Translations under genes and position numbers: made by a program
Notes under the pieces: generated by a model
Database searches by the model: none
The model's input: the letters and a program-made list of their open reading frames with translations, nothing else
What the model was told of the DNA's origin: nothing
Shown: positions 24,390-55,260 of the stretch, piece by piece
Layout: each line of letters opens with the position of its first letter
Numbering within the stretch: the first letter of the stretch is position 1
Assembly: GCF_001584725.1 (NCBI RefSeq)
Contig: NZ_CP014606.1
Coordinates: 992,001-1,056,000 of the forward strand
Length of the DNA: 64,000 nucleotides
Direction of reading: 5' to 3'
Source: an endosymbiont 'TC1' of Trimyema compressum
GTDB lineage: Bacteria; Bacillota; TC1

Positions 24390-25748
24390 AATTTTGATAC
24401 ATTTGATTAGATGTTTTTTAGCTTCTAATTTAATTTTTTCTTCATCAATTGTTAACATTTTACCATCTTGATAAACAATACTTCCATTAATCATTGTTAA
24501 CTCTACTGGTCTCGAATAACCTACAGTTGCTAAAAATGATTCAGGATCCAATAGAGCACCTACCTGCTCTAAATAACTTACATCAATCATAAATAAATAT
24601 GCAGCCTTACCAACCTCTAAAGATCCAATATCCTTTTCTCGACCTAATAGTTTTGCACTGCCAATAGTGGCTAGTTTAAGAATATCCAATCCTATTGGTG
24701 CTGTTACACTGTTGTTTAAACGATGAAGTAAATAAGCACTTCTGATTTCCGCCATTAAATTAGAACCGTCATTGCTACCACAGCCATCAATGGCTAGACC
24801 AACAGGGATACCTGCCTCTAGCATTTGAGGTATTTTTGCAATGCCTGAAGATAGTTTCATATTAGAAACAGGACAGTGTGCTACCCCAGTCCCCGTATTC
24901 TCTAAAACTTTTAACTCTTCATCTGAAAAGTGAATACCATGAGCATACCAGACATCTGAACCTACCCAGTTACATTCCTCTGCCCATGCTAATGGCCTTT
25001 TGCCATAAAATTCTAGACAATAGTTTTCTTCATCTATAGTTTCCACTAAATGTGTATGCAAACGAACCTTGTTGGCTCTAGCCAATTTTGCAGCCTCAAT
25101 CATGATTTCTGTATTCACTGAAAAAAGTGAACAAGGAGCCACAACAACTTGTGCCATAGACAAAGGACTGGCATCATGATATTTATCAATTAGTCTTTGA
25201 CAATCACTAAGGGTCTCCTCACAAGTCTCTATTAAATCATCTGGTGGTAAACCACCATCTTTTTACCTCTATTAAAGGAACTTCTACCACCATGAAAACG
25301 AAGTCCTAAGGACTTAGCAGCTTCAAATTGTCTATCTAACATTTCTTTGCCAGCACCTCTTGGAAAAACAAAATGTTGATCAAATAAAGTTGTACCACCG
25401 TATTTTATAAATTCTGACATAGCAACTATGGAGCTATAGTAAAGAGAATCAGGTGTAACTTTTAACCAAACATTATATAAATACATAAGCCAATCGAAAA
25501 GTTGAAGAGACTGTATTTCTGGAATATTTCTAGTAAATGCCTGAAGAAGATGATGATGGCTGTTAACAAGGCCAGGATAAATAAATTTTCCTTTTCCATC
25601 AATAACCCTTGCTTCATTATCTTCAATATTAGTTCCCATTTTTAATAATAGGACCTTCTACTAAAATATCTCCATTTTTAAATAAAGTACCTTTATCGTC
25701 ACATGTAACAATACATTGTGCATTTTTTATCAGCGTCTTATTCTCCAT
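24390..25748 (-). pseudogene. 8-oxoguanine-deaminase/SsnA-type amidohydrolase, frameshifted
   Basis: Metal-dependent deaminase of the ATZ/TRZ amidohydrolase group; closest in pattern to 8-oxoguanine deaminase and guanine deaminase-like enzymes. ATG 25748 begins MENKTLIKNAQCIVTCDDKG. A frame change near 25645 leads to YPGLVNSHHHLLQAF (metal HxH); another in the five-base run at 25260-25264 leads to GGLPPDDLIETC and the clean rest with RLHTHLVETIDEENY, WYAHGIHFSDEE, GVAHCPVSNMKL and IDGCGSNDGSN (catalytic metal ligands H, H and D). A last shift near 24400 gives the end. It is the final gene of the permease-hydroxylase operon, so it probably fed 8-oxoguanine or guanine to xanthine/urate metabolism. 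Confidence 0.8.
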
Positions 25749-28034
25749 AACTATACCTCACTTTCTTTTTTCTAATAAGAGCCATTTTAATTCTCTCGGC
25801 AGTTAAAGGCAATTGATTAAACTGGATATCTGTACAATTTAAAATTGCATTTCTAATAGCAGCAGCAGGGGCAATATTAGGTGGCTCTCCTAATGACTTA
25901 TTACCATAAGCACTGCTAGGTTCTTCTGTTTCAATAAAATGAACTTCCACATCAGGAATATCCATCATAGTAGGAATTTTATAATCCAAAAGATTGCCAT
26001 TTCTGACTCTACCTGTTTTTCATCAATCAAAATTTCTTCATAAAGACCATAGGCTACAGACATAGCTGTTCCACCTTCAACCTGGCCTTCTGCTAAATCA
26101 GGATTAATCACTTTACCACAATCAATTATGGCTGTAATTTTTTCTATTTCAACCTTACCAGTACTAGCATCTATAGTAACCTCAGTAAACGCTGCCCCAA
26201 ATGTTAAAGCATTTGTAGTAGGAGAATAGTAGGCTTCCTTAGTTAATGTCTGAGGATTCTTATAATCGTAGAATAGTTTCATTGTGATATCTTCTACTGT
26301 ACATACTATTTCCCTTCTAGTCTTATTAATAACATTTCCATCTCTTAAATCTAAATTTTTTCTATCTTCTGCCAGCACAATAGCTGCTTTTTCAAAATAG
26401 CTTTCTTACATTTTTTTCCGCTTTTTTATCGCCATTCCACTTACATAGGTTCGTCTTGATGCATAAGCGCCTGAATCAAAAGGACAGATAGCGCTGTATC
26501 AGAACCAATCACTTTAATCTGTTCGGCTTTTATACCAATAGCTTCAGCTGCAATCTGAGCCATTGTTGTATCCGTGCCTTGACCAATTTCTGCACAACCG
26601 ATAAAAAGAGTTGCTGATCCATTTTCATTCATCATTATTCTAGCTCCAGCTAATTCCACATTATGAGGAAAAGTAGATTGAAAATAGCTAAAAAGAGCCA
26701 TGCCTACACCATAATATTTTCCACTCACTAATTTATCCAGAGCTCTCTTTTCGTCCCATTTAATAATGGATTTGCCTTTGGCAATAATTTCTGGCAAACC
26801 ACAACTCCTAATAGCAAAGCCATTAACAGAATTATAGTCCCCTATTTTACATAAGTTTTTCTCTCTAAATTCAATAGGATCCCACTTCATTTCTTGAGCA
26901 ATATTATCCATATGAGATTCTACTGCAAATGTTAGCTGAGGAATACCATACCCTCTCATAGCACTTGCTATTAAGAGATTTATATAGACTGTAGTCGCTT
27001 TATAGCTTAGATTTGGTGCTGGATATAATACAGAAAACTGACCCCCTATATTACCACAAACACTGTGACCATGAGCACTATAAGCTCCTGTATTGGAGAT
27101 TACTTCCATAGAACGGACGATAATTTCTCCATCTTTTTGTACCCCTGTTTTAAGTTTAAAAACCATACTATGCCTTGTGCGAGTAGCTTCAATTGACTCT
27201 TCTCTTGTAAATTCTAAGAGAACAGGCCTTTTTCTGCTAAAGCTAAGGCGCCATTTAAAGGTTCCAGAACTGCATCCTGCTTTACACCAAAGCCACCTCT
27301 TCCAACTAATGTCTTAATGACTCGGACTGAGTCAAGATTCAAGCCAAGGGCTTTTGAAATTGTCTTTCTTAAAATATGAGGACCTTGATTAGCACTATGC
27401 ACAACTAAAGTTCCATCATTTTCTAAATAAGCCAAAGAAACAGCTGGTTCAATAGGAACATGTTGTACAATTGGTACCTTGATTTCATTTTCAAAAATCA
27501 AATCAGACTCTTGAAAACCTTTTTCAATATCTCCTTCTTCATAGCTATGACTATCAGTAATGTTGCCTGTACCCGGGATGAATATCCACTGCTCCTTCTT
27601 TTAATGCCTCTTCTGGAGTAACATAAATAGGAAGAGGCTCTATGTCCATTGTAATGAGGCTAATTGCCTCTTCAGCTATTTCTAATTGTTTCAGCTGCAA
27701 CAGCTGCAGCTGCAATGGGATCCCCAATATAGCGTACATGTTGTGTCAGAATCAACGTATCTAAAGGGGTATCTTCAGGATAAGGGTGACCTGTTGTTGT
27801 GTAAGGAATCATAGGTACATCATCATAGGTTAGTATTGAAACAACACCAGGTAATCTCTGAGCTTTGCTAATATCTATTTTTTTAACAATGCCATGAGCC
27901 ACTGGACTCCTTAAAATTTTCCCATAAAGCATTCCAACCATTTTAAGATCGCCAACATATTTACTCTGTCCAGTGACTTTATTAAAAGCATCAATTCTCT
28001 TCACCCTATGTCTAATATAAGAGTGTTTTTCCAT
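25738..28034 (-). pseudogene. Molybdenum hydroxylase (xanthine dehydrogenase family) large subunit, five frameshifts
   Basis: Molybdopterin-binding subunit of an XDH-family enzyme. ATG 28034 begins MEKHSYIRHRVKRIDAFNKV. Pieces run 28034-27672, 27739-27554, 27501-27214, 27166-26441, 26378-25965 and 25989-25738; joined they give about 765 residues, the family's size. Visible blocks are AFNKVTGQSKYVGDLK, VGRGGFGVKQD (the molybdopterin-contact GGAFGGKE equivalent), SAMRGYGIPQLTFAVE and FIGCAEIGQGTDT. The C-terminal GxxxGE catalytic glutamate region reads NKSLGEPPNIAPAAA. It is a second, diverged copy next to the intact subunit at 51065; no FAD or FeS subunit is beside it, so it may have shared them or been of the SDMH (XdhD-like) type. 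Confidence 0.85.
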
Positions 28035-28060
28035 AATGCCTCTTCCTTTCTATCATTAGC

Positions 28061-29224
28061 TTATTCAGTTAATGTTCTTCCAGTTACAACTGCATCTTCT
28101 TCAATGTCTTCAATATCATCAACTTTATTAAAACCAGATGTTACAATCATAGAAAACATAATCAACATAACGGCTCCTAAAACAGGTCTCGGTATCATAG
28201 TTGCTAAAGCAGCAAATTTAGGCAGTAATCCTAAAATAAAGAGAAAAACACCTGCTAGTACAACTACAAATCTACTATTAACTCTAGTTAAACCAACTAA
28301 ACCTGCATTACCTGAATAGGTTGTATATGGGAAAGAATTAAAAATTCCTCCAAGGACTGTAGCAATTCCTTCAGCTCGTAACCCTTTTGTCACTTCCTTT
28401 TCTCCAATTTCTTTGCCAACATAATTACCAATGACAAAAAATGTGCCCGTTGATTCAATCATTACAATTAACATCACAACACACATACTAATAATTGCCT
28501 GGATATTGAAAGTAGGCAAGCCAAAATGAAATGGTCTAACAAATTGGAACCAGCTGGCTTCAAAAAGAGGTGTTGGATCAACTAATCCCATAAAAGCTGC
28601 AATTATAGTACCAGCAATAAGGCCAATTAAAATTGAAATTGACTTCATAAAAACCTTTGTGAAACGATTGATTATGACCACAAGCAGTAACGTAATACCT
28701 GTCAACAATAAAAATTGAGGAGCACCATATAAATCCGTTCCTACAACTTGAGCCCCTCCTGCAATATCCGTAATACTATTGGGAATTAAAGATAAACCAA
28801 TGATACAAACTACAGAACCTGTCACTACTGGTGGGAACAACTTCAAAATCTTCCCAAACAAAGGCGCAATTAGAAAAATAAAAACACCTGCAACAATAAT
28901 CGATCCATAGACTGTTGTTATTCCAAAATTATTCCCTGTAGAAATAATAACAGCTATTGGTGCAAAGGCACACCCTAGAATTACTGGTAACCTAATACCT
29001 ATATGTTTTCCCATTCCCAAAGACTGAATAATTGTGGCGATACCGCAAGTGAATAAATCTGCTGCAATTAAAATGCCAATTTCTTGATGCGAAAGTCCAA
29101 GACCTGCACCTACAATTAAAGGAATAGCAACACCACCTGAATAAAAGGCCAAAACTTGCTGAATTCTGAGCATACTCATTTCCCCAAAGGGAAGCATTCC
29201 ATCAATGTCTGATTTTCCTTTCAT
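28061..29224 (-). CDS. Purine permease (NCS2 family), C-terminally short
   Basis: Proton- or sodium-driven uptake of xanthine, urate or guanine. 387 residues with about 11 hydrophobic segments. Motifs are QQVLAFYSGGVAIPLIVGAG, PPVVTGSVVCIIGLSLI, and the NCS2 signature region ESTGTFFVIGNYVGKEI followed by NSFPYTTYSGNAGLVGLT. Family members are usually 430 to 460 residues; here the protein ends after MIVTSGFNKVDDIEDIEEDA, so the last helices are missing. Either an internal deletion removed them or the end is a new frame. Orientation and spacing (26 bases) place it first in an operon with the molybdenum hydroxylase and deaminase. A preQ1-I-like leader lies upstream. Confidence 0.82.
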   Translation of the reverse strand: MKGKSDIDGMLPFGEMSMLRIQQVLAFYSGGVAIPLIVGAGLGLSHQEIGILIAADLFTCGIATIIQSLGMGKHIGIRLPVILGCAFAPIAVIISTGNNFGITTVYGSIIVAGVFIFLIAPLFGKILKLFPPVVTGSVVCIIGLSLIPNSITDIAGGAQVVGTDLYGAPQFLLLTGITLLLVVIINRFTKVFMKSISILIGLIAGTIIAAFMGLVDPTPLFEASWFQFVRPFHFGLPTFNIQAIISMCVVMLIVMIESTGTFFVIGNYVGKEIGEKEVTKGLRAEGIATVLGGIFNSFPYTTYSGNAGLVGLTRVNSRFVVVLAGVFLFILGLLPKFAALATMIPRPVLGAVMLIMFSMIVTSGFNKVDDIEDIEEDAVVTGRTLTE

Positions 29225-29294
29225 TTTAAAGACTCCTTCCTTCTGCTTTTATCTGGCTTACCCTTAAATTTCCTCCTTTCTCTATCAATAAAAA

Positions 29295-29330
29295 TCCCCT
29301 ACTAAAAAAATCTAGTTTTTTAGTAGGGGG
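29295..29330 (-). terminator. Leader terminator of the purine-permease operon
   Basis: Minus-strand stem CCCCTACTAAAAAA with TTTTTTAGTAGGGG, followed by ATTTTTATT. It lies between a TATAAT-bearing promoter region near 29385 and the permease start, so it acts inside the leader as an attenuator. The 5' arm is shared with the riboswitch-like element. Confidence 0.85.
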
Positions 29331-29346
29331 ACTGGAACCCTTCGTT
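29312..29346 (-). ncRNA. preQ1-I-like riboswitch aptamer before the purine permease
   Basis: Minus-strand AAGGGTTCCAGT, then CCCCCTACT and AAAAAACTAG, follows the class I preQ1 layout: a G-rich P1 strand, loop with TTC and AG, C-rich return strand, and an A6-CTA tail for the pseudoknot. The C tract gives four P1 pairs (AGGG with CCCT). The loop AG can pair with CU of the tail, though one P2 position is C-A rather than U-A. The 3' half is also the 5' arm of the terminator, so ligand binding and termination would exclude each other (an ON switch). Assignment rests on pattern memory; ligand unproven. Confidence 0.5.
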
Positions 29347-29539
29347 AATTAAAATATACCCAACCTGGTTTTCAATGTCATTATATATAATCACAATTTT
29401 TTTAATATTCTTATGCTTTACATTTACTGAATTCCAAGGCAAAATTTTATTAATATTTTTAATGGTTTTTATCTATAATCATTTCAAAAATGATATAAAT
29501 GTATTATAATAAGGAAAAGTACAATCAGGAGGAATTAAA

Positions 29540-29703
29540 ATGGATAGTTACATCTGTAATGTTTGTTGGTATACATATTGACCCTGCAGTTGTTGACCCA
29601 AAAGCAGGTATTGGGCCAGGAACACCATTCGAGTCTTTGCCTGACTGAAGATTGGTTCTGTCCAATTTGTGGTATGACAAAAGAACATTTTAGAAAAGGG
29701 TAA
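29540..29703 (+). pseudogene. Rubredoxin, frameshifted
   Basis: Small iron protein, one Fe(Cys)4 centre, likely electron donor to FprA. ATG 29540 has AGGAGG upstream. Reads MDSYICNVCWYTY, shifts to DPAVVDPKAGIGPGTPFES, then shifts to EDWFCPICGMTKEHFRKG with stop at 29701-29703. Both CxxC knuckles (CNVC and CPIC) are present and repaired length is about 53, exactly rubredoxin-sized. Two single-base changes near 29577 and 29645 break it. Terminator follows at 29717. Confidence 0.85.
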
Positions 29704-29716
29704 GTTACCTTATCAA

Positions 29717-29772: not shown

Positions 29773-30831
29773 TTATTTATCTACCAATATTAAAGCCTTT
29801 GGATCAAAATAAATTGTCCAAGGGCCTCCCTTATTTTCAATAGTTTGCCAAAAATTTCGGCTCATTTCCCAACGTAATAAGTTTTCCTCTGTTTTTTCTG
29901 ATACACTGAGATAAATACTCATATCAAAAGGGTTTTCAACAACATTTACAGGATAAAGAACTACCCTATTAGCTACTTCATTTTCCCTAGCAAAACGTAA
30001 ATATTGATCCTGAATACCTACATGTGTAACATTATCTGAAACCCTATCCTCAGTTTTTAAATTGATACCCCAATCCATAGCAAAAATATCGTATTCACCA
30101 ATTTTCCTACATTGAGAAAAATTTTTACACCCTGTTAATTGTCCCGTCTTTAAAGTAGGGGGCTTTTTGAAAATAGTCTTCTTGTCTCCAAAAGCTTCAA
30201 CTTTTCCTTTATCTACAACAATAATATCATTACATAAACGATAAGCTTCCCGCATATTATGAGTCACAAATATAGCGTAACCTTGATACCAGCTAAGATT
30301 TTCCCTCAATTGCTCAATCATCTGATGCCTCAAATAGCTATCCAAAGCTGAAAAAGGCTCATCTAGTAGAAGCAACTCAGGATTTAGTACCAATGCTCTC
30401 CCTAAAGCTACTCGCTGCTTCTGACCTCCAGAAAGCTGACTTGGAAAACGATTTTCTAAACCGCTTAATGCCAGCCGGTAAATCATTTTAGCCACAGATT
30501 CATTTCTTTCTTCCTTTGCTAACTTATGAAGGCCAAAGCCAATATTTTCCACTACAGTCATATTGGGAAAAAGTGCATAATCCTGAAATAAATAGCCAAT
30601 TTTCCGTTCTCTAACTAATTTATTAATCTTTTTATCACTATCAAAAAGAACCATATCATTTAAAATAACTTGTCCCTCATCGAGCTTTTCAATTCCAGAA
30701 ATACCTTTTAAAGTCATAGTCTTACCTGAACCAGATGCCCCGAGTATCCCTGTAATCTTTTCTTTGCAAATAAAATCAACATCTAGGGTAAATTCTTTAA
30801 ATTTCTTTTTCAGCTTAACCTTTAAAGCCAT
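29773..30831 (-). CDS. modC: Molybdate ABC transporter ATP-binding protein
   Basis: Powers molybdate import. The start at ATG 30831 (MALKVKLKKKFKEF) is preferred over the longer 30849 form because AAGGGG lies nine bases upstream and the family begins here. It has Walker A GASGSGKT, Q-loop YLFQDYALFPNM, signature LSGGQKQRVALGRAL and Walker B LLLLDEPFSALD, all in the first 215 residues. The C-terminal 130 residues take the place of the usual mop/TOBE sensor domain but look only distantly like it. Overlaps closely with modB (the modB stop is at 30833). Intact, 352 residues. Confidence 0.92.
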   Translation of the reverse strand: MALKVKLKKKFKEFTLDVDFICKEKITGILGASGSGKTMTLKGISGIEKLDEGQVILNDMVLFDSDKKINKLVRERKIGYLFQDYALFPNMTVVENIGFGLHKLAKEERNESVAKMIYRLALSGLENRFPSQLSGGQKQRVALGRALVLNPELLLLDEPFSALDSYLRHQMIEQLRENLSWYQGYAIFVTHNMREAYRLCNDIIVVDKGKVEAFGDKKTIFKKPPTLKTGQLTGCKNFSQCRKIGEYDIFAMDWGINLKTEDRVSDNVTHVGIQDQYLRFARENEVANRVVLYPVNVVENPFDMSIYLSVSEKTEENLLRWEMSRNFWQTIENKGGPWTIYFDPKALILVDK

Positions 30832-30832
30832 T

Positions 30833-31513
30833 TTAACGACCCCTTCCATATTGATTTTTCTGCTGTCTCTGGGTCCAGTAATTCATTAAAATCATGCCAA
30901 TTAAAGAGATTGAGAAAATCAATCCCGCCCATAAATAAGCTTTATTCATATCCCCTGCTTCAACTGCAAAATAAATAGCTAAGGGAATAGTTTGGGTTTT
31001 TCCTACAATATTTCCTGCAATCATTAAAGTTGCACCAAACTCTCCTAAGCCACGGGCAAAAGCTAAAACTGCTCCAGCACAAATGCCTGGCCAAGCTACC
31101 GGTACTACTACCTTCCAAAAAACACGCCACTCTTTTGCCCCTAAAATTCTAGCACTATAAATCAAACTATCATCTACTTGCTCAAAAGCCCCTCTAGCAG
31201 TCTTATACATTAATGGAAAAGAAACTACAGTTGCAGCAATAACAGTGGCAGTCCATGTAAATATAACTGAAACATTTAATGACTCAAAAAGAAATGAACC
31301 TATAGGACCATTTTTACCAAAAAATACTAGCAAAAAGAACCCAATCACTGTTGGTGGTAATATTAATGGTAACATTAAAATACTATCAATGACACCTTTA
31401 AATTTACTCTTAGATCTGGCTACAAACCAAGCTGCTAGCAATCCTAAAAAAAATGTTACAATTATAGAAAGACAGGCCGTCTTTATAGAAACAATTAATG
31501 GAGACCAATCCAT
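30833..31513 (-). CDS. modB: Molybdate ABC transporter permease
   Basis: Membrane channel of the molybdate importer. 226 residues, about five or six transmembrane segments, intact. Begins MDWSPLIVSIKTACLSIIVT, and carries the cytoplasmic EAA-type loop SARILGAKEWRVFWKVVVPVAWPG and the FARGLGEFGATLMIAGN signature typical of ModB. Sits between the binding-protein gene and modC. No lesion seen. Confidence 0.93.
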   Translation of the reverse strand: MDWSPLIVSIKTACLSIIVTFFLGLLAAWFVARSKSKFKGVIDSILMLPLILPPTVIGFFLLVFFGKNGPIGSFLFESLNVSVIFTWTATVIAATVVSFPLMYKTARGAFEQVDDSLIYSARILGAKEWRVFWKVVVPVAWPGICAGAVLAFARGLGEFGATLMIAGNIVGKTQTIPLAIYFAVEAGDMNKAYLWAGLIFSISLIGMILMNYWTQRQQKNQYGRGR

Positions 31514-31619
31514 ATTTACTTACCTCAATTTGCTTTCCTTATTTCATCAAGAAAAAGCAGCACCAAAATGATTCTGCTTTTTCAAGAAATCTTGACTTAC
31601 TCTATTATTAATATATCAC

Positions 31620-32429
31620 TTATTGAATCTTAGTAAAACCAAATTTTTCAAATTTAGCTTTAGCTTCATCTCCTTTTAGATAGTTTAAAAAATCTTTTGC
31701 CCCTTGTTGGTTTTGTGCATCTTTAAGAACTGCTGCTGGATAAGTAACTGGTTTATGACTGTCTTCTGGTGCTGTTGCTGCAACTTTTACACCACTAGCT
31801 ACTTTGGCATCTGTTTCATAAACAACACCTGCCTCAGCATTTTTAGTCTCTACCCATGAAAGGACTTCTCTTACATCTTTTCCATAAACAAGCTTGCTTT
31901 CTATTTTTTCAAAAAGCTTAAAATAATTTAAAACGTCCTTAGTATAAACCCCTACAGGAACACTGGCTGGATCTCCCATGCCTATTTTAGTTACACTGTC
32001 TTTTGTTAAATCTTCAAAAGAAGCCACCTGATTATTATCACTAGGAACAATCAGTACAACCCTATTTTTTAGTAAGTCTATTCTGGTACCCTTAACAATT
32101 AAATCCTTTTCTTCCAAAGCGTTCATTTGTTTAGGGGCTGCTGACATAAACAAATCAGCAGGAGCTCCCTGTTCTATCTGCTGCTGCAAAGAACCTGAAC
32201 TACTAAAATTATACTCAATTTCCACATTCTTTTTTTTACTAATGTAATCTGTTTTAATTTCCTCCATTACATCTTTCAAACTGGCTGCTGCAGAAACTGT
32301 AATTTTTGATGGTTCTTTACTTGTGTCAGTGCCATTGTTACCGCAAGCGACTAGTAAAAAACAACTGCTAAACAAAAGCAATAACCCAATAACAATACTC
32401 CTACTCTTTTTAAATAACATATTTTTCAT
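31620..32429 (-). CDS. modA: Molybdate-binding lipoprotein, copy 1
   Basis: Extracytoplasmic molybdate-binding protein. 269 residues. A lipoprotein signal is visible: KKSRSIVIGLLLLFSSCFLL then LLVACGNNG (lipobox L-V-A-C). Core motifs ITVSAAASLKDVMEEIK, FSSSGSLQQQIEQGAPADLF (oxyanion-binding S and Q), and WVETKNAEAGVVYETDAKV fit ModA. Intact. A paralogue lies directly upstream. Confidence 0.93.
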   Translation of the reverse strand: MKNMLFKKSRSIVIGLLLLFSSCFLLVACGNNGTDTSKEPSKITVSAAASLKDVMEEIKTDYISKKKNVEIEYNFSSSGSLQQQIEQGAPADLFMSAAPKQMNALEEKDLIVKGTRIDLLKNRVVLIVPSDNNQVASFEDLTKDSVTKIGMGDPASVPVGVYTKDVLNYFKLFEKIESKLVYGKDVREVLSWVETKNAEAGVVYETDAKVASGVKVAATAPEDSHKPVTYPAAVLKDAQNQQGAKDFLNYLKGDEAKAKFEKFGFTKIQ

Positions 32430-32460
32430 TATATACCTCCAAAATATTAATCAATCTGAT

Positions 32461-33262
32461 TTATTGTACAGTACTAAAACCATACTTGGTAAATATTTCT
32501 TTTGCTTCACTAGTTTGTAAGAATGCTAAAAAACTTCCGCACCTTCTTTATTTTCATTATTTTTCAGAATAGCTGCTGGATAAACAACTGGCTTATGGCT
32601 TTCTTCTGGAGCAATTGCAGCAATTTGAACATTTTTGCCCACTTTAGCATCCGTCTCAAAAACAAAGCCTGCATCTGCATTTTGGGTTTCTACCCAGGAT
32701 AAAACTTCTCTTACATCCTTCGCAAAAACTAATTTTTCCTGAACAGCATCAAAAATACCATAATAGTTCATTATTTCTGTACCATAAACACCTAGCGGTG
32801 TACTACCAGGGTCTCCAATTCCAACCTTAGAAACATTTGAATCACCCAAGTCTTCAAAACTGTTAATTATCGAATTATCCTTTGGCACAATTAATACTAT
32901 TTTGTTTTTTAAGAGATTTACCTTTGTATCTGTTAAAACTAAATCCTCAAAAATTAATGCTTCCATATGCTTAGGAGATGCTGAAATAAAAATATCTGCA
33001 GCAGCACCTTGTTCTATCTGTTGTTGCAATGAACCAGCACTACCAAAATTATATTGAATAGCAACTGACGGATGTCGCTGAATGTAAATGGTCTTCAATT
33101 CTTCTAAGACATCCTGCAAACTTGCTGCTGCAGAAATATTTAAAGTTGAAGGTTCTTCTTTTTGCTGACATACTGTTAATAAAAGTATTCCTATGATTAA
33201 AAGAAGCAAACCACATTTTATAGCTTTATAGCTTTTAGTAATGTTTTACTCATTTTTTTCAT
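32461..33262 (-). pseudogene. modA: Molybdate-binding lipoprotein, copy 2, two lesions
   Basis: Paralogue of the next gene (same ISAAASLQDVLEELK, SLQQQIEQGAAADIF and AKDVREVLSWVETQNADAG blocks). The true start is ATG 33262 with GAGAGG upstream. The first 14 codons (MKKMSKTLLKAI) lead into an 8-bp tandem duplication TTATAGCT at 33218-33233 that shifts the frame; without it the signal peptide continues KCGLLLLIIGILLLTVCQQK with lipobox L-T-V-C. At the 3' end, one T is missing in the six-base run at 32528-32533; with it the frame reads FLAFLQTSEAKEIFTKYGF and stops at 32461. First gene of the mod operon, behind a consensus promoter. Confidence 0.9.
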
Positions 33263-33304
33263 AATCCTCTCTTAATTTTTAATATAAAAAAATCAAAACG
33301 TGAC

Positions 33305-33377
33305 AATAATAATCAATTCTTAACAATTATTAATTAAGTTTGATTATTATTATAATCTTATAACTATATTTTGTCAA
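33305..33377 (-). promoter_or_regulatory. Consensus promoter and long palindromic operator of the mod operon
   Basis: Minus strand: -35 TTGACA at 33372-33377, exactly 17 bases, -10 TATAAT at 33349-33354. A perfect 12-bp inverted repeat, AATAATAATCAA (33305-33316) and TTGATTATTATT (33340-33351), begins at the -10 box and spans the start point, 47 bases in all. This is where a repressor such as a ModE-like regulator would bind; the MocA-ModE fusion protein at 53385-54311 is a candidate. Confidence 0.85.
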
Positions 33378-33415
33378 TAAAAAACAGTTGGAATTATAAA
33401 TTCCAACTGTTTTTT
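33378..33415 (-). terminator. Terminator of the small XRE gene
   Basis: Perfect stem AAAAAACAGTTGGAATT with AATTCCAACTGTTTTTT around a 4-base loop. Directly downstream of the stop at 33430. Confidence 0.92.
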
Positions 33416-33429
33416 TAGATAATGCCTAA

Positions 33430-33630
33430 CTAGTTATCAAAAAGATCATCTAGAGAATGCCCAAGAACATGAGCAATACTCTTGCAAGTTTTAATTGAAG
33501 GATTAGCAGTTCCACCTTCAATCATATAAAGATTTTGCCTAGTAATTCCTACTGCATCGGCTAATTCACGAATTGAATAGCCTTTTCCCAAACGATATTT
33601 TCTGATTTTGTCCGCGTCTTTCTTATTCAT
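33430..33630 (-). CDS. Small XRE-family regulator
   Basis: 66-residue Cro/CI-type protein consisting of little more than one helix-turn-helix (YSIRELADAVGITRQNLYMIE, residues 18-38), followed by PSIKTCKSIAHVLGHSLDDLF. ATG 33630 has GGAGGTGG upstream. Such minimal regulators usually control neighbouring genes; here it stands between pepD and the mod operon with its own terminator. Targets unknown. Confidence 0.85.
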   Translation of the reverse strand: MNKKDADKIRKYRLGKGYSIRELADAVGITRQNLYMIEGGTANPSIKTCKSIAHVLGHSLDDLFDN

Positions 33631-33661
33631 TTTCCACCTCCGTATAATTAATATAGCTTAA

Positions 33662-35116
33662 TTAAATACTTTTAATATCTTGAAGCACTGCCTTAATAAA
33701 CTTCCATACTCTTTCTGTTGATGAAATTGATAGATGTTCTTCTGCAGTATGGGCTCCGATAATAGTAGGTCCAAAACTTATAGCATCAATATCTGGCATC
33801 TTTTCTTTAAAAATACCACATTCAAGACCAGCATGTATCGCAACAACTTCACCTTTGTTATCAAACCTAGCATTATAGCACTTCGTACATAAATCTCTTA
33901 CTTTTGAATGAGCTTCATAAGCCCAAGCTGGGTAGAAACCATAATTTTCTGCAGTTCCATCAACCGCTTCAGCTAAACAGCTTAAACTATTAACTAAATC
34001 CATCCCCTGACTCTTAATAGAACTTCTTAAGGCAGATTCTAACAATACATGGTTTTCTGTTGTTTTCACAATACCGTTATTCATAGAGGTCTGTACCAAT
34101 CCTTCAATATATTGACTGCGGCTTAAAGGACCATAGGGAATTAATGTTAAAACAGTTGCAACATTGAGACTATCCTCTACAGACATTACTTTAAATATAC
34201 CTTGTGTTGAATCCTCTATTACAATTTTAATATTAGAATCCTGAGGAGTATATTCTGCTTGTAATTCTTCCTCTAAAGTAGCAATAATTGAATTTACTTT
34301 CTCCAGGCTGGATGCTTCAATTAATACGGTAGCTCTACACTCCCTAGGTATGGCATTATTTTTTGCTCCTCCAAATATGCCACCTAAAGAAAATTTAATA
34401 TTCGCAACACTCATATTATTTAAAAATCTGCCCATTAGTTTATTAGCATTGGCTCTTTCTTTAGCAATTTCCAACCCTGAATGACCACCTAGTAAGCCAA
34501 ATATTCTGACACTTAACAGAAGACCTTGAGTCTCTTTAAATTTTATAGGAATCGTAATAGCATTTGTATTACCACCTGCACAGGAAGCATAAAACTTCCC
34601 TTCCTCTTCCGTATCAATATTCATGAAAATCTTACCTTCAAGTACACTGGCATCTAATGCATGAGCACCTGTCATTCCAGTTTCCTCATCTGTCGTAAAT
34701 AAAACCTCTAATGGTGGATGCTCAATATCTTGGCTATCCAGTAAGGCTAAGCAGAAAGCTACTCCAATACCATCATCGGCACCTAAAGTTGTTCCATCAG
34801 CATATAAATCATCACCATTAACTACCCATTTTATTGGATCTTTACTAAAATCATGTTTGCTGTCAGCTTTTTTTTCGCAAACCATATCCATATGACCTTG
34901 AAGAATAACAATAGGCCCATCCTTTAAGGAGCCTGTGCCAGGCTTCTTAATAATAATATTATTAGCTTCATCTTGTTTTGCCCAAAGGTCTCTTTCTTGA
35001 GCAAACCCTTTAAGATAGTTACTGATATTGCCTTCTTTTTTTGAACAACGGGGTATCTGGCTAATAGCTTCAAAAAAATGAAAAACATCTTTACTTTCCA
35101 ATTGATCAAAATTCAT
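33662..35116 (-). CDS. pepD: Aminoacyl-histidine dipeptidase (M20 family)
   Basis: Zinc dipeptidase that splits Xaa-His and other dipeptides in the cytoplasm. 484 residues, intact. Metal-site blocks are VILQGHMDMVCEKK, LGADDGIGVAFCLALLD and FTTDEETGMTGAHALD (catalytic E), then the GGHSG segment of the lid domain and the last histidine in GPTIIGAHTAEEHLS. It overlaps the upstream PqqD-like gene by 11 bases, and that gene is coupled to the OPT transporter, so the three form a peptide uptake and hydrolysis operon. Confidence 0.94.
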   Translation of the reverse strand: MNFDQLESKDVFHFFEAISQIPRCSKKEGNISNYLKGFAQERDLWAKQDEANNIIIKKPGTGSLKDGPIVILQGHMDMVCEKKADSKHDFSKDPIKWVVNGDDLYADGTTLGADDGIGVAFCLALLDSQDIEHPPLEVLFTTDEETGMTGAHALDASVLEGKIFMNIDTEEEGKFYASCAGGNTNAITIPIKFKETQGLLLSVRIFGLLGGHSGLEIAKERANANKLMGRFLNNMSVANIKFSLGGIFGGAKNNAIPRECRATVLIEASSLEKVNSIIATLEEELQAEYTPQDSNIKIVIEDSTQGIFKVMSVEDSLNVATVLTLIPYGPLSRSQYIEGLVQTSMNNGIVKTTENHVLLESALRSSIKSQGMDLVNSLSCLAEAVDGTAENYGFYPAWAYEAHSKVRDLCTKCYNARFDNKGEVVAIHAGLECGIFKEKMPDIDAISFGPTIIGAHTAEEHLSISSTERVWKFIKAVLQDIKSI

Positions 35117-35474
35117 CCCAATCCCTCTCTTCCTTAATATGATCTAATTTAATATATCTCTGTTTTAAAATATGTCTCATAAATGGAATTAATCTGGCAA
35201 TAGCTACCTCTTCACTATCCCTTAAATCTTCAGCCATTATCTTAGCAATATCATAAACTGACCGCTTACCATTAATTAATAGCCAAACGCGAGTACTGTT
35301 ATCATCTAATGTAATATCTGTTGTTGTAGGTTTTTTAAATAGCCAAGTAAAAAAACGTTGTATCGGCTGTTTATAATGAAAATAGAGAATAATATGATCC
35401 TCAACCAGCTGATAATCCTTATGAATAATCACAGGTACATAGCTTAAAAAATTATGCTTAGGATTATATTTCAT
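35106..35474 (-). CDS. PqqD-like peptide-chaperone protein
   Basis: 122 residues. The C-terminal two-thirds (TTDITLDDNSTRVWLLINGK followed by YDIAKIMAEDLRDS) match the PqqD family, winged-helix chaperones that hold peptides for radical-SAM modifying enzymes. Its N-terminal 50 residues are basic and aromatic. It overlaps OPT by TAATG coupling and pepD by 11 bases. No radical-SAM maturase or precursor peptide is near. The peptide transporter context suggests a peptide-binding role, but that is inference. Confidence 0.72.
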   Translation of the reverse strand: MKYNPKHNFLSYVPVIIHKDYQLVEDHIILYFHYKQPIQRFFTWLFKKPTTTDITLDDNSTRVWLLINGKRSVYDIAKIMAEDLRDSEEVAIARLIPFMRHILKQRYIKLDHIKEERDWDEF

Positions 35475-37432
35475 TACTTTTCCTCGCTTATCTGCTTATC
35501 TTCTTTTGTTTTCCTAACAGTTACAAAATACATCCAAATAGCCAATAAAATAAATATTATAAAAGTAACAATACTTTTTGCTACTGGTGATGTAATTACA
35601 TTACTGAAAATATCTGTTTTCACGCCTATAAATGCAAAAACAGCTACAATTATACCAATTAATGCATCCCCTGCAATTAAACCAGAAGAGAGGAGAATCC
35701 CTTTTTCAACCTTCTTATCTTTAAGCTTTTGATCTTTTTTGAAGCGTCTTTCAACAAGTTCTCTAATAACACCACCAAGAAAGATAGTTGCAGTTAATGT
35801 AATATTTAAGTAAATACCTAATGAAACTGATAATACCGGTAAACGCAAGAACCAGCAAGCAATTGCAATAAATACGCCAACTAACACAAATAACCATGGC
35901 AACTGGGCATTGATAATTCCCTGTATTAATAGCGCAATTAATGTAGCCTGAGGCGCTTGTAAATTAGCACTTCCAATTTGATAGGTGGAGGTAAGGATAA
36001 TCATAATACCAACTGCTACAAAAGTTGTAAAAAGCAGTGCGATAATCATAGAATATTGTACTTTTCTAGAAGTTCCACCTATAACAAAGGTTGTTTTTAA
36101 ATTCTGTGTAGCTCCACCTGCAACAGATATAGCAACACAGACAATAGTTCCAATGACTAATGAAGCTACCATACCTTCATTTCCAACCATACCCATGGCC
36201 CTAAATACGGAAGTAACAATTAATAAGCTTGCAATAGTCATACCTGATACAGGATTATTTGATACCCCAATAATCCCTACCATCCTAGCTGAAACAACAG
36301 CAAAGAAAAAGCTAAAGACTATGGCCAAAGCAGCTCCCACCATATTACTTCCTACAATTGGCAACAACCAAGTCATTAGAAAAACAGCAATGACTACTAT
36401 TAAAACCCAGAACATAGGAACTTCCATATCAGAACGTAATGTAGTACCACCTATAGCTGTTTTTTTTTCCAGCCCCGTAATTGCAGACTTAAAGCTTTTA
36501 AAAATACTCGGCAAAGAGGTAACAAGAGAAATTAAACCACCAGCAATTACGCCACCTGCTCCAATATAACGAATATACTGTTGCCAAATCTCATCAGATG
36601 TCATATTGCCAATTAATGTAGTGGCAGGTTCTATGGCCGTAACTGCATCTGCTCCAATATATTTAATTAGTGGAATTAAAGTAAACCAGGCAATTAAGGA
36701 TCCTCCAAACAACAAAGAAGCAGTCTTTGTGCCAACAATAAAGCCAAGTCCTAATAAAGAAGCCAATGTCTCAAAACCAAATTTAGTTCCTTGATAACTC
36801 TTGAGATAAATAGAAGCTGATTCATTCCATAAACCAAATCCACCAGACAACCATTTATAAGCAGCGCCTACACCAATTCCTGTTAATATAGTTTTAAAAC
36901 CACTGCCACCTTCACTGCTATGGACTAATACTTCTGCTGCTGCCATACCCTCAGGATAAAAAAGCTTACCATGTTCTTCAACAACCAGTAGCATTCTAAA
37001 AGGTGTTACTAAAAATATACCTAAAAATCCACCTAAAATAACCAATACTACTGCTTGAAAAAAATTAATGGACATCCCCCAAATAATTAAAGCTGGCACT
37101 GTAAAAATCAAGCTTCCTGCTACGGACTCACCTACAGCTCCCATGGAAGCAGTTATATTAGCTTCCAAAAGATTATTTCTTTTAAATAAAGCTTTAAATA
37201 TTCCAACACCTAAAATAGCTGAAGGAATACCTGCGGTAATTGTTAACCCTACTTTTAAGCCTAAATATACATTTGCGGCAGTAAAAAAACAAGCTAAAAT
37301 AATACCAAGAATAATAGAATAACCCGTAATTTCAGGCATGACCTCTGAAGTAGGGATATAGGGTTCATAGTCAACTCCTTTTATACATCCATAGGCATCT
37401 TTAGAAATACCTTTTTCATTGTGATTACTCAT
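35474..37432 (-). CDS. OPT-family oligopeptide transporter
   Basis: Large proton-coupled membrane transporter of peptides or peptide-metal complexes. 652 residues, about 15 hydrophobic segments, intact. Family marks near the N-terminus are PEITGYSIILGIILACFFT, AANVYLGLKVGLTITAGIPS and ITASMGAVGESVAGSLIFT. ATG 37432 has GGAGGTG upstream. The gene is nearly 2 kb without a single frameshift, in contrast to many broken neighbours. Substrate unknown; the coupled PepD suggests di- to oligopeptides. Confidence 0.93.
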   Translation of the reverse strand: MSNHNEKGISKDAYGCIKGVDYEPYIPTSEVMPEITGYSIILGIILACFFTAANVYLGLKVGLTITAGIPSAILGVGIFKALFKRNNLLEANITASMGAVGESVAGSLIFTVPALIIWGMSINFFQAVVLVILGGFLGIFLVTPFRMLLVVEEHGKLFYPEGMAAAEVLVHSSEGGSGFKTILTGIGVGAAYKWLSGGFGLWNESASIYLKSYQGTKFGFETLASLLGLGFIVGTKTASLLFGGSLIAWFTLIPLIKYIGADAVTAIEPATTLIGNMTSDEIWQQYIRYIGAGGVIAGGLISLVTSLPSIFKSFKSAITGLEKKTAIGGTTLRSDMEVPMFWVLIVVIAVFLMTWLLPIVGSNMVGAALAIVFSFFFAVVSARMVGIIGVSNNPVSGMTIASLLIVTSVFRAMGMVGNEGMVASLVIGTIVCVAISVAGGATQNLKTTFVIGGTSRKVQYSMIIALLFTTFVAVGIMIILTSTYQIGSANLQAPQATLIALLIQGIINAQLPWLFVLVGVFIAIACWFLRLPVLSVSLGIYLNITLTATIFLGGVIRELVERRFKKDQKLKDKKVEKGILLSSGLIAGDALIGIIVAVFAFIGVKTDIFSNVITSPVAKSIVTFIIFILLAIWMYFVTVRKTKEDKQISEEK

Positions 37433-39294: not shown

Positions 39295-40151
39295 TTATTT
39301 AATTGGATTTGGAATAAACAATGGTTGACCATATTCAGTAACACCAAACTTTTTAATTAAATTAATAGCTTTTTCACTGAACATCCAGTTAATCCATTCT
39401 TCTGCAGCATTTTTTTGAGCTTCAGAAGTAACTAGCTTTTCATAGTTTAGAGTTACAATTGCATACTGATTATATAAAGTAGGATCTTTTTCAGTTACAA
39501 TTTCTAAATCTAGTTGATTTTTCAAAGCTAAGAATGTTGCTCTATCTGTTAGAGTATAGGCTTGCATTTCAAAAGCCATTTCTAAAACAGGAGCCATTCC
39601 TTTACCAGCAGAAACATACCAAGAAGGGCCTTCAGGTGTAATAGCTGCTGCTTTCCAAATGCTTTTTCTTTTGCATCTGTTCCAGATTCATCACCTCTTG
39701 AAACAAAAGTAGCAGTCTTAGCAGCTGCCACCATTGTGAACGCCTTTTTTTAGCATCCGTGCCTGCTGTTAACTTTATTCCTAATGGATCCCGCTTTAGG
39801 TCCAACAATAATAAAGTCATTATACATTAGCTCTTGTCTTTTAGTTCCAAAGCCAGCAGCAATAAACTCTTCTTCTTTTGCTTTTGCATGTACCAATAAA
39901 GCATCAGCATCACCACTTTCGGCTGTCTTAAGGGCTTGTCCTGTTCCTTGGGCTAACACATCTACTTTAATACCTGTATCCTTTGTAAATTCCGGTAATA
40001 ACACATCTAACAAACCAGAATCTTGGGTACTTGTTGTTGCTAATTTAATAGTAAAATCTTCCTTTGTTTTCGTCTCTTGTCCACCACAGCCTACAACTAG
40101 CAGAAGTGCAAAAAACAAAACACTTCCAATACCTAATAATTTTTTCAACAT
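39295..40151 (-). pseudogene. tupA: Tungstate-binding lipoprotein, frameshifted
   Basis: Extracytoplasmic tungstate-binding protein of an ABC importer. The start ATG 40151 (MLKKLLGIGSVLFFALLLVV) has GGAGGTC upstream, and lipobox VGCGG. TupA marks: LATTSTQDSGLLDVLLPEFT, GTGQALKTAESGDADALLVH and MYNDFIIVGPKA. Frame changes near 39790, 39745 and 39640 lead through DPLGIKLTAGTD, FVSRGDESGTDA and the final clean 100 residues from PVLEMAFEMQAYT. No tupB or tupC gene is beside it. A Moco/Tuco-like leader lies upstream. Confidence 0.88.
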
Positions 40152-40227
40152 TTCGACCTCCAATAACCACCATTTTATTTATTTTTCCTAGTCTTTTATA
40201 ACTAAGTAAAACACTAAATATTAACTT

Positions 40228-40289: not shown

Positions 40290-40412
40290 AATCCTTATTA
40301 TTTTATCCACAAAACCTTTTCAAATGTGGAAGGCGTTAAGGTTTCCCTCAACCCCCTGTCTTAAAAACCATAATTCATAATAAATCTTAGGTTTAAAAGA
40401 TCGGTTATATGC
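40290..40412 (-). ncRNA. Moco/Tuco-type riboswitch candidate upstream of tupA
   Basis: A minus-strand promoter (TATAAT at 40422-40427, TTATGA 17 bases upstream) starts a leader with a 7-bp GTTGAGG-GAAA-CCTTAAC hairpin capped by a GNRA loop, followed by CGCCTTCCACATTTG and AAAAGGTTTTGTGGA. The run CGCCT-CC, then TG-AAAAGGT, matches what I remember of the 3' core of the molybdenum-cofactor RNA motif (for example upstream of E. coli moaA). The 5' part is short, as in the tungsten-cofactor (Tuco) form that lacks P3. A terminator follows at 40228. Context (tungstate uptake) fits. Confidence 0.58.
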
Positions 40413-40473
40413 TTTAGCATCATTATATTTTAATCTAATAACATTCATAAGTCATGGAAATTTAATTGAAAAA

Positions 40474-42421: not shown

Positions 42422-42589
42422 ATCATATTACTCCATTTCCTACTTCCCAAGTTAATTATATACTTACCTTATATTAAGGTTAATTCACCTATCCTAACTT
42501 TAACATGAATATTTTTTCACAAGATTATTTAAAGATTTATCATTGACATATTGACCTTAAAAAAATATAATAATTAAAGTAACAAATTA

Positions 42590-42685
42590 TAGAGTAGGAA
42601 ACATTCGGTAAAGACTTACTAGACGGGAAATTGTTAGTAAGGGAAAAAACATTTGTTTTGCTTGTTTGTTTTTGCATTCCGCTAT
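42590..42685 (+). ncRNA. Tetrahydrofolate (THF) riboswitch
   Basis: Upstream of folT. The sequence AGAGTAG, ATTCGGTAAAG, ACGGGAAATTGT and the closing GCATTCCGCT match the order and spacing of the THF-I motif (AGAGUAG, UUCG-GUUAAG, GGGAUGU, GCAUCCGCUC). ACTTACT and AGTAAGG form the internal P2-like arm, and AACATTTG/TGTTTTTG the next. Genetic context, a folate transporter, is the standard one. Confidence 0.78.
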
Positions 42686-42750
42686 AACATAGAGTAAGAA
42701 TGTGTCTATCCTTTCTTTTTTCTTTGTTGTAGAAAAGAAAGGAGTTTTTT

Positions 42751-43287
42751 ATGTCTAATGTCAAAAAATTAATAACCGCAGCGGTACTGTTAGCTCTAGT
42801 AATTATTATGACTAGATTTTTATCTATCCAAACCCCATTTTTAAGAATAGGGTTTTCATTTATTCCAATTATTCTTTCAGCTATCCTATTAGGTCCTGCG
42901 TGGAGTACAATTATTGCAGGCATTGCTGACTTAATAGGTGTTTTTTTATTTCCATCTGGGGCTTTCTTCATCGGCTTTACTTTAAGCGCTTTTTTAACGG
43001 GCTTAATTTATGGCTTATTCCTTTATAAGAAAGATGGTATTTTTGAAACTAAGGCATTATTAATCCGTTTAATATTAAGCAGTCTAATCGTCTTAATTCT
43101 TATAGGAGGCTTACTTAATTCTTATTGGCTTTTCTTAATGTATGACAAAGGTTTTATGGCTATTATGCCAATGCGTGTTGTTAAGGAATTAATTATGTTA
43201 CCTATTCAAGTAATTGTTATTTTCTTAATTGAAAAAGCTATGCGAAAGCCATTTACTCGATATATGTTTTCAGAAGCAAAACGATAA
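42751..43287 (+). CDS. folT: Folate ECF transporter S component
   Basis: Membrane substrate-binding subunit that captures folate and docks on the shared ECF module. 178 residues, six hydrophobic segments. Reads MSNVKKLITAAVLLALVIIM, then FLRIGFSFIPIILSAILLGP, WSTIIAGIADLIGVFLFPSG, typical of FolT (the FIPI and AxADxxG blocks). ATG 42751 has AAGGAG upstream. Intact. The THF riboswitch in its leader supports the substrate assignment. Confidence 0.92.
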   Translation: MSNVKKLITAAVLLALVIIMTRFLSIQTPFLRIGFSFIPIILSAILLGPAWSTIIAGIADLIGVFLFPSGAFFIGFTLSAFLTGLIYGLFLYKKDGIFETKALLIRLILSSLIVLILIGGLLNSYWLFLMYDKGFMAIMPMRVVKELIMLPIQVIVIFLIEKAMRKPFTRYMFSEAKR

Positions 43288-49782: not shown

Positions 49783-50598
49783 CTAAATACCATTGATATT
49801 CAAAAAGTCTTTGAGTAAATTCATACAGACGTCTTTTCTATATGCTTCTGAAACACGTCCACGAATAGGCACAATAGCCTCATCATATGCTTTTAAATAA
49901 GCTTCTTTTAGAGTCTTAGCTTCATTAATAGTTTTTCCAATAAACAAAGCATCAATATCCTCTCTGCGAATAACAACATCACTGACAGCCCCAAAAGCAG
50001 TAGCACAATTAACAATAATATCATTCTCCATTTTTAATAAACCAGCAAAAGATATTCTTGAAATAGCCAATGCTTTTCTGGCACCTACTTTTTGGTAATA
50101 ATAATTACCAAGAGCAGCTTTTGGAAAAAGCACTTCAACAATTAACTCATCAGACTTTAAATCTAACTGCTTCTTGCCTTTATAAAATGATTTTATAGGA
50201 ATAATACGCTCATTATCTTTACTCATTAAACGCAGTTTTGCATCTGTAGCAAAAAATACTAAGGCTGTATCAGCCTTTGGTGAACCATTGCCAATATTGC
50301 CACCTATAGTCCCCATGTTTCGTATAGCAGGCGCTGCTATTTGTTCAATAGCATCCTTTAAAATAGGAGGACAAAGAGGATTTTTAGCAACTTCAGTAAA
50401 TGTACAAGATGCACCAATATGAATAAAATCATCTGCTTCTTTAATTTTTTTCATTTCAGGAACTTTATGGAGAAAAAGATAACTAATATTTTTTTCTGCC
50501 TCAATCATTAAATCAGTGCCACCACCATAAGGCACTACTGATTTCTGGCTCCTAAGCTCTAAAGCATCCTTAATATTTGTTGGCAAATAGCTTACCAT
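49783..50598 (-). CDS. Molybdenum hydroxylase FAD subunit (XdhB/YgfM type)
   Basis: Medium FAD-binding subunit of a xanthine-dehydrogenase-family enzyme; passes electrons to NAD or another acceptor. 271 residues, intact. Pyrophosphate-binding VVPYGGGTDLMIEAEK near residue 20 and IRNMGTIGGNIGNGSPKADT near 100 are the family's FAD motifs; C-terminal CO-dehydrogenase-flavoprotein domain follows. It overlaps the 2Fe-2S gene by seven bases. Confidence 0.93.
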   Translation of the reverse strand: MVSYLPTNIKDALELRSQKSVVPYGGGTDLMIEAEKNISYLFLHKVPEMKKIKEADDFIHIGASCTFTEVAKNPLCPPILKDAIEQIAAPAIRNMGTIGGNIGNGSPKADTALVFFATDAKLRLMSKDNERIIPIKSFYKGKKQLDLKSDELIVEVLFPKAALGNYYYQKVGARKALAISRISFAGLLKMENDIIVNCATAFGAVSDVVIRREDIDALFIGKTINEAKTLKEAYLKAYDEAIVPIRGRVSEAYRKDVCMNLLKDFLNINGI

Positions 50599-51065
50599 AA
50601 TCCCTCACCTTCCTTTGCAGCAATATCTATAGCCTTTACAATTGCATTATAACCTGTGCAACGACAAAGATTACCTGAGATGCCTACTCTAATTTCTGCT
50701 TCAGTAGGATGCGGATTTTCTCTCAAAATACACTCAGAAGCTAAAATCATGCCAGGAATACAGAACCCACATTGAACAGCACTGGCCTCTCCATAAGCAT
50801 CGCTTAGTACTTTAAAACGCTTGGTCTTTTTATAGCCTTTAACCGTAATGATTTCACTACCTTCAATACGCCCCATAGCAACCATACAAGAATTGGCTAA
50901 TTTGCCATCAATAATCACAGAACAGGCACCACATTCACCTTCTTTGCAACCGCATTTCACACTTGTATCACCTAATTCTTCACGTAAAACATCTAATAGA
51001 CGAGCTGCTTTGTTGCCTTCCCATACAACTTCTTTATCATTTAATATAAATTTAATTTCACTCAT
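50592..51065 (-). CDS. Molybdenum hydroxylase 2Fe-2S subunit
   Basis: Small subunit with two 2Fe-2S clusters. 157 residues, intact. The plant-type cluster binds at CGCKEGECGACSVIIDGKL (CX4CX2C plus a later C), the second at CGFCIPGM and CRCTGYNAIV. Overlaps the large-subunit gene by one base and the FAD gene by seven, so the three are translated together. Confidence 0.95.
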   Translation of the reverse strand: MSEIKFILNDKEVVWEGNKAARLLDVLREELGDTSVKCGCKEGECGACSVIIDGKLANSCMVAMGRIEGSEIITVKGYKKTKRFKVLSDAYGEASAVQCGFCIPGMILASECILRENPHPTEAEIRVGISGNLCRCTGYNAIVKAIDIAAKEGEGLW

Positions 51066-54704: not shown

Positions 54705-54825
54705 AAAATCAATTACATGCAATGATGAAAACACAGTCTGGCTGGTAGTCCAGACACAGTCATTAAACTGTTAGTAACCTGCCTTCCTTGGTTGTCCCTT
54801 CTTTGCGAATTAACAAGGAGGCTTT
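54705..54825 (+). ncRNA. yjdF riboswitch
   Basis: Leader of the yjdF gene. The stem GTCTGG-CTGGTAGT-CCAGAC, then ACAGTCATTAAACTGTTAGT and ACCTGCCTTCCTTGGTTG, fit the yjdF RNA motif layout, a riboswitch that senses azaaromatic compounds. The 3' end blends into the RBS (AACAAGGAGGC), which fits translational control. Identity is supported by the gene that follows. Confidence 0.8.
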
Positions 54826-54829
54826 TATT

Positions 54830-55260
54830 ATGCAAAAAAGTAAACTAACAGTATATTTTGAAAATCCGTTCTGGATTGCTGTATATGAGCATATTTACGA
54901 TGATATGCCAGAAGTGTGCAATTACATTTGGCACAGAACCAAAAAATTATGAAATATATGATTATTTTCTTACACATTGGAATACTCTATCTTTCAGTCC
55001 CCAAATTAAATCATTCAGTCCCCAAATTAAATCATATGGTAAAACAAAAATAAGAATAAATCCAAAACGGATGCAACGAATAATCAAAAAACAAATATCT
55101 AAAAAGAATATCAGCACAAAAGCACAGCAAGCTCTACAAAAACAACAATCTGAAATGCTAATAGCCTGCAAAAAGAAATCTCGCCAACAAAAAAGAGGAA
55201 CAAAAACGCTCTTTTAAATTAAAACAACAAAAACGCATAGAAAAGCATAGAGGTCATTAA
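54830..55260 (+). pseudogene. yjdF: YjdF-family protein (DUF2992), frameshifted
   Basis: Protein of unknown function produced in response to azaaromatics. ATG 54830 has AAGGAGG nine bases upstream. Reads MQKSKLTVYFENPFWIAVYE, shifts near 54925 to CAITFGTEPKNYEIYDYFL, then has a 21-bp tandem duplication (54993-55034) repeating FSPQIKS, then NPKRMQRIIKKQISKKNIST and a basic helical tail. A last frame change in the A6 run near 55195 leads to EEQKRSFKLKQQKRIEKHRG and the stop at 55260. Repaired length about 143 (136 without the duplication), normal for the family. Confidence 0.88.
54993..55034 (+). repeat. 21-bp tandem duplication in yjdF
   Basis: Two exact units of TTCAGTCCCCAAATTAAATC plus A at 54993-55013 and 55014-55034. 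Confidence 0.95.

Follow-up and report, generated by a model that had tools for sequence, protein, structure and literature searches.

A preQ1-I-like pseudoknot shares a strand with the terminator in leaders of 8-oxoguanine-deaminase-like genes and is predicted to act as an ON switch

The purine operon and its leader

The window (the whole 64-kb stretch of DNA that was analysed) carries on its minus strand a purine operon preceded by a leader with a preQ1-I-like element (Table 1). The genes had been named correctly in the initial annotation: they encode an NCS2/PbuX-like permease, an XdhA-like molybdenum hydroxylase and an 8-oxoguanine-deaminase-like amidohydrolase. The operon contains at least seven frameshifts, and the permease is devoid of the C-terminal ~80 residues found in relatives. 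A rubredoxin-like gene (29540-29704) with at least two frame breaks lies upstream of the leader on the opposite strand, and the broken xdhA, deaminase and rubredoxin-like genes adjoin intact genes at 29773-37432. The molybdate transporter gene past the rubredoxin-like gene has, by eye, its own terminator-like hairpin, and thus the hairpin at 29329-29296 belongs to the 5' leader of the permease operon. The window genes that are split into frame segments (24402-28040 and 29540-29704) are either pseudogenes or assembly errors; because further genes elsewhere in the window also look broken, decay and assembly error are inseparable here.

Table 1. Features of the purine operon and its leader, in window coordinates
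Feature	Coordinates	Strand	Basis
NCS2 permease, PbuX-like	28061..29224	-	TIGR03173 414.6 bits, cutoff 414.15
XdhA-like molybdenum hydroxylase, six frame segments	25777..28040	-	Pfam pieces; tblastn with G124 XdhA
8-oxoguanine-deaminase-like amidohydrolase, three frame segments	24402..25742	-	~70% identical to G124 deaminase; top NCBIfam match is 8-oxoguanine deaminase
preQ1-I-like aptamer AAGGGUUCCAGUCCCCCUACUAAAAAACUAG	29312..29342	-	RF00522 15 bits, below gathering; 18.9 bits and top of the 64 kb with R2, a model of other genomes
P1 5' strand AAGGG	29338..29342	-	Hand alignment with four other leaders: G-C, G-C, G-C, A-U, A-A mismatch
L1 UUCCAG, including P2 5' strand (CAG)	29332..29337	-	Same in G124, G090, G118; UUGCAG in G344
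L2 UCC, last base the putative specificity cytidine	29329..29331	-	One base shorter than AAAC/UAAC of relatives
P1 3' strand CCCUA, also part of terminator 5' arm	29324..29328	-	Strand test, hand alignment
A-rich L3 CUAAAAAA, also part of terminator 5' arm	29316..29323	-	Hand alignment
P2 3' strand CUAG	29312..29315	-	CUNGG in G124, G090, G118
Leader terminator, 14-bp stem 29329-29296 and U-rich tail; 5' arm is the aptamer 3' half	29287..29329	-	Terminator scan and folding
Promoter-like ATGACA-17-TATATT	29353..29381	-	Consensus scan, 10/12 positions; weak: 4 such sites in region versus 2.2 in shuffles

The minus strand at 29342-29312 carries AAGGGTTCCAGTCCCCCTACTAAAAAACTAG, which has the layout of a preQ1-I-like pseudoknot, and the strings from which this pattern was originally recognised are all present. 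The A-rich L3 CUAAAAAA is in place, as is the P2 pseudoknot between loop and tail, in which CAG pairs with CU(A)G. The window copy is degenerate: only four of the five P1 pairs form, the outermost being an A-A mismatch, and the P1 3' strand is preceded by CC in a loop that is one base shorter. In a hand alignment, the four relatives described below (G124, G090, G118 and G344) have all five pairs and AC at this position. The segment CCCCUACUAAAAAA (29329-29316), which lies inside the aptamer, is at the same time the 5' arm of a 14-bp hairpin (29329-29296) that ends in AUUUUUAUUG, as the initial annotation had proposed. In the window copy this terminator arm reads CCCCTACTAAAAAA (29329-29316, minus strand), the hairpin is directly followed by ATTTTTATTG, and it is the single terminator-like site of the permease leader (shuffle mean 0.2). 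Transcription from the promoter-like sequence could start near 29346, just 5' of the aptamer.

The window has other features of interest. A Molybdenum cofactor/tungsten riboswitch (40297-40418, minus strand, 71 bits) lies 5' of a frame-broken gene for a PBP-like solute-binding protein (39295-40163), a THF riboswitch (42588-42686, plus strand, 52.7 bits) lies 5' of an ECF transporter S component gene (42751-43287), and an azaaromatic (yjdF) riboswitch aptamer (54715-54815, plus strand, 85 bits) lies 5' of a small ORF at 54858. At 49783-53179 (minus strand) there is another xdh-like set, apparently intact, whose Mo subunit, FeS and FAD proteins share about 27-42% identity with XdhABC of G124. 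Two similar modA-like genes for molybdate-binding proteins are found side by side at 31620-33209 (minus strand), adjoining modBC-like genes.

Copies of the element in other genomes

An unbiased scan of 249 genomes with the Rfam preQ1-I model (RF00522, E up to 0.001) gave 25 matches. Twenty-four are located 5' of queuosine genes (queC, queD, queF, queT and yhhQ types, assigned by the proteins encoded downstream). The remaining match, in G124, is located 5' of an orthologue of the window deaminase gene. The G124 operon consists of deaminase, NCS2, xdhA, xdhB, xdhC and a second NCS2 gene; the G124 and window NCS2 proteins are 63% identical. G090, a sister of G124, has the same leader. The RF00522 scores of these two elements (30.4 bits in G124 and 26.7 bits in G090) and of a third one in G118 (27.8 bits) are below the gathering threshold of 39 bits, and several leaders of the queT, yhhQ and queF types also reach only 28-30 bits.

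Two covariance models were trained on the purine leaders: R1 on the window, G124 and G090, and R2 on G124, G090 and G118 only. The R1 alignment contains one wrong flank letter in G090 (CCCC for ACCC), and the R2 references are free of this error. R1 found the G118 copy, which was outside its training set, with 42.6 bits (E 2e-7) in a short gap between an arcC-like gene and a deaminase gene that sits in a ygeY-ygeW-ygfK-arcC-like cluster. The G344 copy, about 60 nt 5' of a deaminase gene, is a weak match with both R1 and R2; on reading, it is divergent and has the same layout, with UUGCAG and CUG. The element that was originally read from the window alone is thus conserved in other families, where it lies in the leaders of orthologous purine genes: there are five copies in four families, each 5' of an 8-oxoguanine-deaminase-like gene or operon. 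With the NCBIfam model for 8-oxoguanine deaminase (cutoff 532), the proteins of G118, G344 and G124 score 609, 561 and 526 bits, respectively.

The best-preserved copies are those of G118 and G124. P1 is identical in three of the five copies in the hand alignment, and its covariation therefore rests on the window and G344. P1 pairs 3 and 4 are G-C and A-U in the window versus U-A and G-C in relatives, which is compensatory. The G090 and G124 leaders (L069 2700-2870 and L068 13500-13700, minus strand) also contain a nested apex hairpin with compensatory changes in its arms (AAUUAAGAG/CUCUUAAUU versus GUUUAAGAG/CUCUUAAAC).

Across two phylum samples that are largely the same (398 and 368 genomes), R2 scores exceed 50 bits only in the three training leaders. 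Lower R2 matches in G394 (queC), G173 and G283 (both queT) are preQ1-I elements of queuosine genes, and the G235 and G252 matches are apparently due to chance. R1 found nothing in 17 genomes of the class of G344, where it missed G344 itself, so that this run was insensitive. Most of the orthologous deaminase loci (about 55 regions) are without the element. Such a small number of copies could also point to a protein-binding or uninduced attenuator that has no small-molecule ligand and resembles the pseudoknot incidentally. We consider this very unlikely, as the invariant loop and tail nucleotides fit the preQ1-I pocket in G124, G090 and G118, and RF00522 is the sole Rfam family that matches these three leaders. 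A search for purine riboswitches in the G124, G090, G118 and G344 regions gave none up to an E-value of 1.

The window site compared to chance

By RF00522 alone, the window site is at chance level. It scores 15.0 bits (E 1.7 in its own genome), and 13 other sites in this 1.6-Mb genome equal or beat it. With R2, which contains no window sequence, the site is first in the 64 kb (18.9 bits, E 0.048; the runner-up has 11.0), and it is more than chance once this model of its relatives is used. When the 5' part of the leader was dinucleotide-shuffled with the terminator kept fixed, any fold-compatible arrangement appeared in 789 of 20,000 shuffles, and a UUCCAG aptamer with both P1 and P2 in 4 of 20,000.

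It could be argued that a plain A-tract terminator happens to lie downstream of a random UUCCAG, with the real element existing only in other genomes. The RF00522 result, the imperfect P1, the short L2 and an R2 E-value near 1 upon scaling to the whole genome all speak for such a coincidence. However, the site occupies the leader of an orthologous operon and has the same terminator overlap, the conditional shuffles rarely yield the UUCCAG aptamer, and a strict pattern scan of 85,000 genomes gave leader matches in G124 and G090 only, while its other twelve matches look like chance and none is in such a leader. A coincidence is therefore improbable.

Other searches that started from the window found little. 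Other Rfam classes gave nothing above noise in the window leader, and purine riboswitches were not matched even up to an E-value of 10. The leaders of the NCS2 paralogue in the same genome (L020/L042) and of the nearest permease homologues contain no motif, and a search for loci related by permease found none. Comparison of the leader DNA across 100 relatives returned short chance matches only, one of them inside a frameshifted transporter gene of the same genome. Close family members have no permease at the cutoff used, and hence there are no near orthologous leaders to compare. Given that the window copy is below the single-genome threshold, is degenerate and precedes an operon with at least seven frameshifts, it may be decaying, or its assembly may be error-prone.

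Wiring of the aptamer and the terminator

In all five copies, the 5' arm of the terminator consists of the P1 3' strand together with the A-rich loop and the P2 strand. A strand test shows pairing of the P1 3' strand with an arm flanked by a U-run in four out of four purine leaders (window, G124, G090 and G118), at scores that none of 300 shuffles per leader reaches. The same strand is part of a terminator-type arm in none of 12 queuosine-gene preQ1-I leaders (a thirteenth, L141, was left out). Folding gives the same wiring in G344 (z -3.4) and G118 (z -5.3). Apart from two chance sites, a scan for this architecture over 3.27 Mb strand-bases recovered only these purine leaders; it missed G344, in which the arm begins inside L2.

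Because the 3' half of the aptamer doubles as the 5' arm of the terminator in all five copies, the shared strand predicts an ON switch, and the original proposal that aptamer folding should prevent termination is supported by the wiring of all five copies and its absence from the 12 queuosine-gene leaders. In the absence of ligand, the P1 3' strand, L3 and the P2 3' strand would pair with the downstream arm 5' of the U-run, and transcription would stop. Binding of a purine with a guanine face (8-oxoguanine or guanine being the likeliest) would sequester the shared strand in the pseudoknot, so that the terminator could not form and the operon would be transcribed. In folding calculations for the window, locking the aptamer lowers the terminator probability from 0.95 to 0.00.

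The G124 and G090 leaders are more complex. Their terminator has an apex hairpin nested in it and a local hairpin that competes, and with the aptamer locked the minimum free energy structure retains a local terminator with a probability of 0.95-1.0. The unlocked state of G124 is a longer hairpin with the same U-run at its end. Step-wise folding of the locked leaders suggests that the apex hairpin is kept until the local terminator becomes the more stable by about 3 kcal/mol. Read-through in these two leaders consequently needs a kinetic argument, and their ON logic would depend on the preformed apex hairpin resisting invasion. The retained local terminator is also what would be expected of an OFF switch in G124 and G090, in which folding of the aptamer frees a local terminator hairpin as in Bacillus queC. 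This alternative is unlikely. In the window, G118 and G344, no local terminator was seen that could do without the aptamer strand; in G124, the local terminator has to invade an apex hairpin that is already formed, and gains only some 3 kcal/mol by doing so; and it makes little sense for a substrate to silence the genes for its own breakdown.

The putative ligand

The gene common to the loci of all five copies is the 8-oxoguanine-deaminase-like gene. Guanine and 8-oxoguanine share a pairing face, which xanthine and urate do not have. In preQ1-I aptamers, a specificity cytidine pairs with the guanine face, and ligands rank preQ1 > preQ0 > guanine (PMC11625349). The four copies outside the window keep this cytidine (in AC), the floor G-C pair, the U of L1 and the last A of L3 (roles as in PMC11625349), so the nucleotides known to contact the ligand in preQ1-I structures have not changed in them. 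Xanthine and urate would be a poor fit to the retained cytidine, and 8-oxoguanine or guanine fits better. The kept guanine-face nucleotides and the deaminase common to all five loci favour 8-oxoguanine or guanine as the putative ligand.

With the contact nucleotides unchanged in the four non-window copies, only gene context and wiring argue for a purine other than preQ1. The latter is itself a possible ligand: each of the four genomes checked has a tRNA-guanine transglycosylase, so preQ1 is usable there. The element could be an ordinary preQ1-I aptamer that senses preQ1 (or preQ0) and is wired ON, with the operon serving preQ1 or another 7-deazaguanine, or with preQ1 acting as a proxy of guanine status. 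The kept contact nucleotides (structural roles in PMC11625349) and the transglycosylase are consistent with this, and so are the RF00522 scores of G124, G118 and G090 (27-30 bits), which are on a par with genuine queT and yhhQ leaders (28-30 bits). Yet the genes serve to take up and oxidise purines, and what the loci have in common is an 8-oxoguanine-deaminase-like gene. The queuosine-gene leaders from the same scan are wired differently, and no other preQ1-I element was found in G090 and G124, although one would be expected on their queuosine genes. An ordinary preQ1 switch is thus unlikely, if a serious contender. In the literature searched, a preQ1 riboswitch and guanine deaminase are never named together.

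We conclude that the window element is probably a diverged, possibly decaying copy of a conserved ON-switch variant of the preQ1-I fold that serves genes of guanine/8-oxoguanine uptake and breakdown. More tentatively, and with the odds somewhat against it, the preQ1-I pseudoknot may have been re-used as a second, structurally unrelated class of 8-oxoguanine (or guanine) riboswitch that turns on the 8-oxoguanine deaminase and purine uptake. We know of no earlier ON-wired member of this fold.

Comparison with known riboswitches

The element resembles preQ1-I (RF00522, types I-III; e.g. B. subtilis queC and T. tengcongensis) in being an H-type pseudoknot with an L1 that starts with UU, AG before L2, an A-rich L3 and a P2 with C-U. 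The full 5-bp P1 closed by G-C and the cytidine (in AC) before the P1 3' strand are seen in the four relatives, versus four pairs and CC in the window. The L2 of G118 (UAAC) is that of T. tengcongensis. Unlike in preQ1-I, P2 is CCAG/CUNGG and the scores are below the Rfam gathering threshold, and the downstream genes are those of a purine permease, xdh and 8-oxoguanine deaminase and not of queuosine synthesis or preQ1 transport. In preQ1-I, an independent terminator is freed or the ribosome site is hidden (OFF), whereas here the P1 3' strand serves as the 5' arm of the terminator (predicted ON). The preQ1-I members covered in a review (PMC11625349) repress queuosine genes on preQ1.

The preQ1-I aptamer is among the smallest known. 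If the proposed reading is true, a branch of it on purine breakdown genes with a reversed output would mean that a minimal fold can change both ligand and sign, as the guanine-class aptamer did, and would hint at the way in which oxidised or free guanine is sensed by some little-studied clostridia-like bacteria. The 8-oxoguanine riboswitch, a guanine-I variant (Hamal Dhakal et al. 2023, as cited in PMC11625349), has the same proposed ligand and embodies the same idea of a purine variant; going by that citation, it has the three-way-junction purine fold, and the pseudoknot described here is related to it neither in sequence nor in structure. Purine breakdown genes, xanthine dehydrogenase among them, are also the context of guanine-class variants for xanthine, guanine and 2'-deoxyguanosine (PMC9295807), which differ in fold. 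The closest parallel in control is the adenine riboswitch (Mandal and Breaker 2004, as cited in PMC11625349), in which, according to that account, the bound aptamer likewise removes a strand from the terminator to turn the gene ON, with a different aptamer and ligand.
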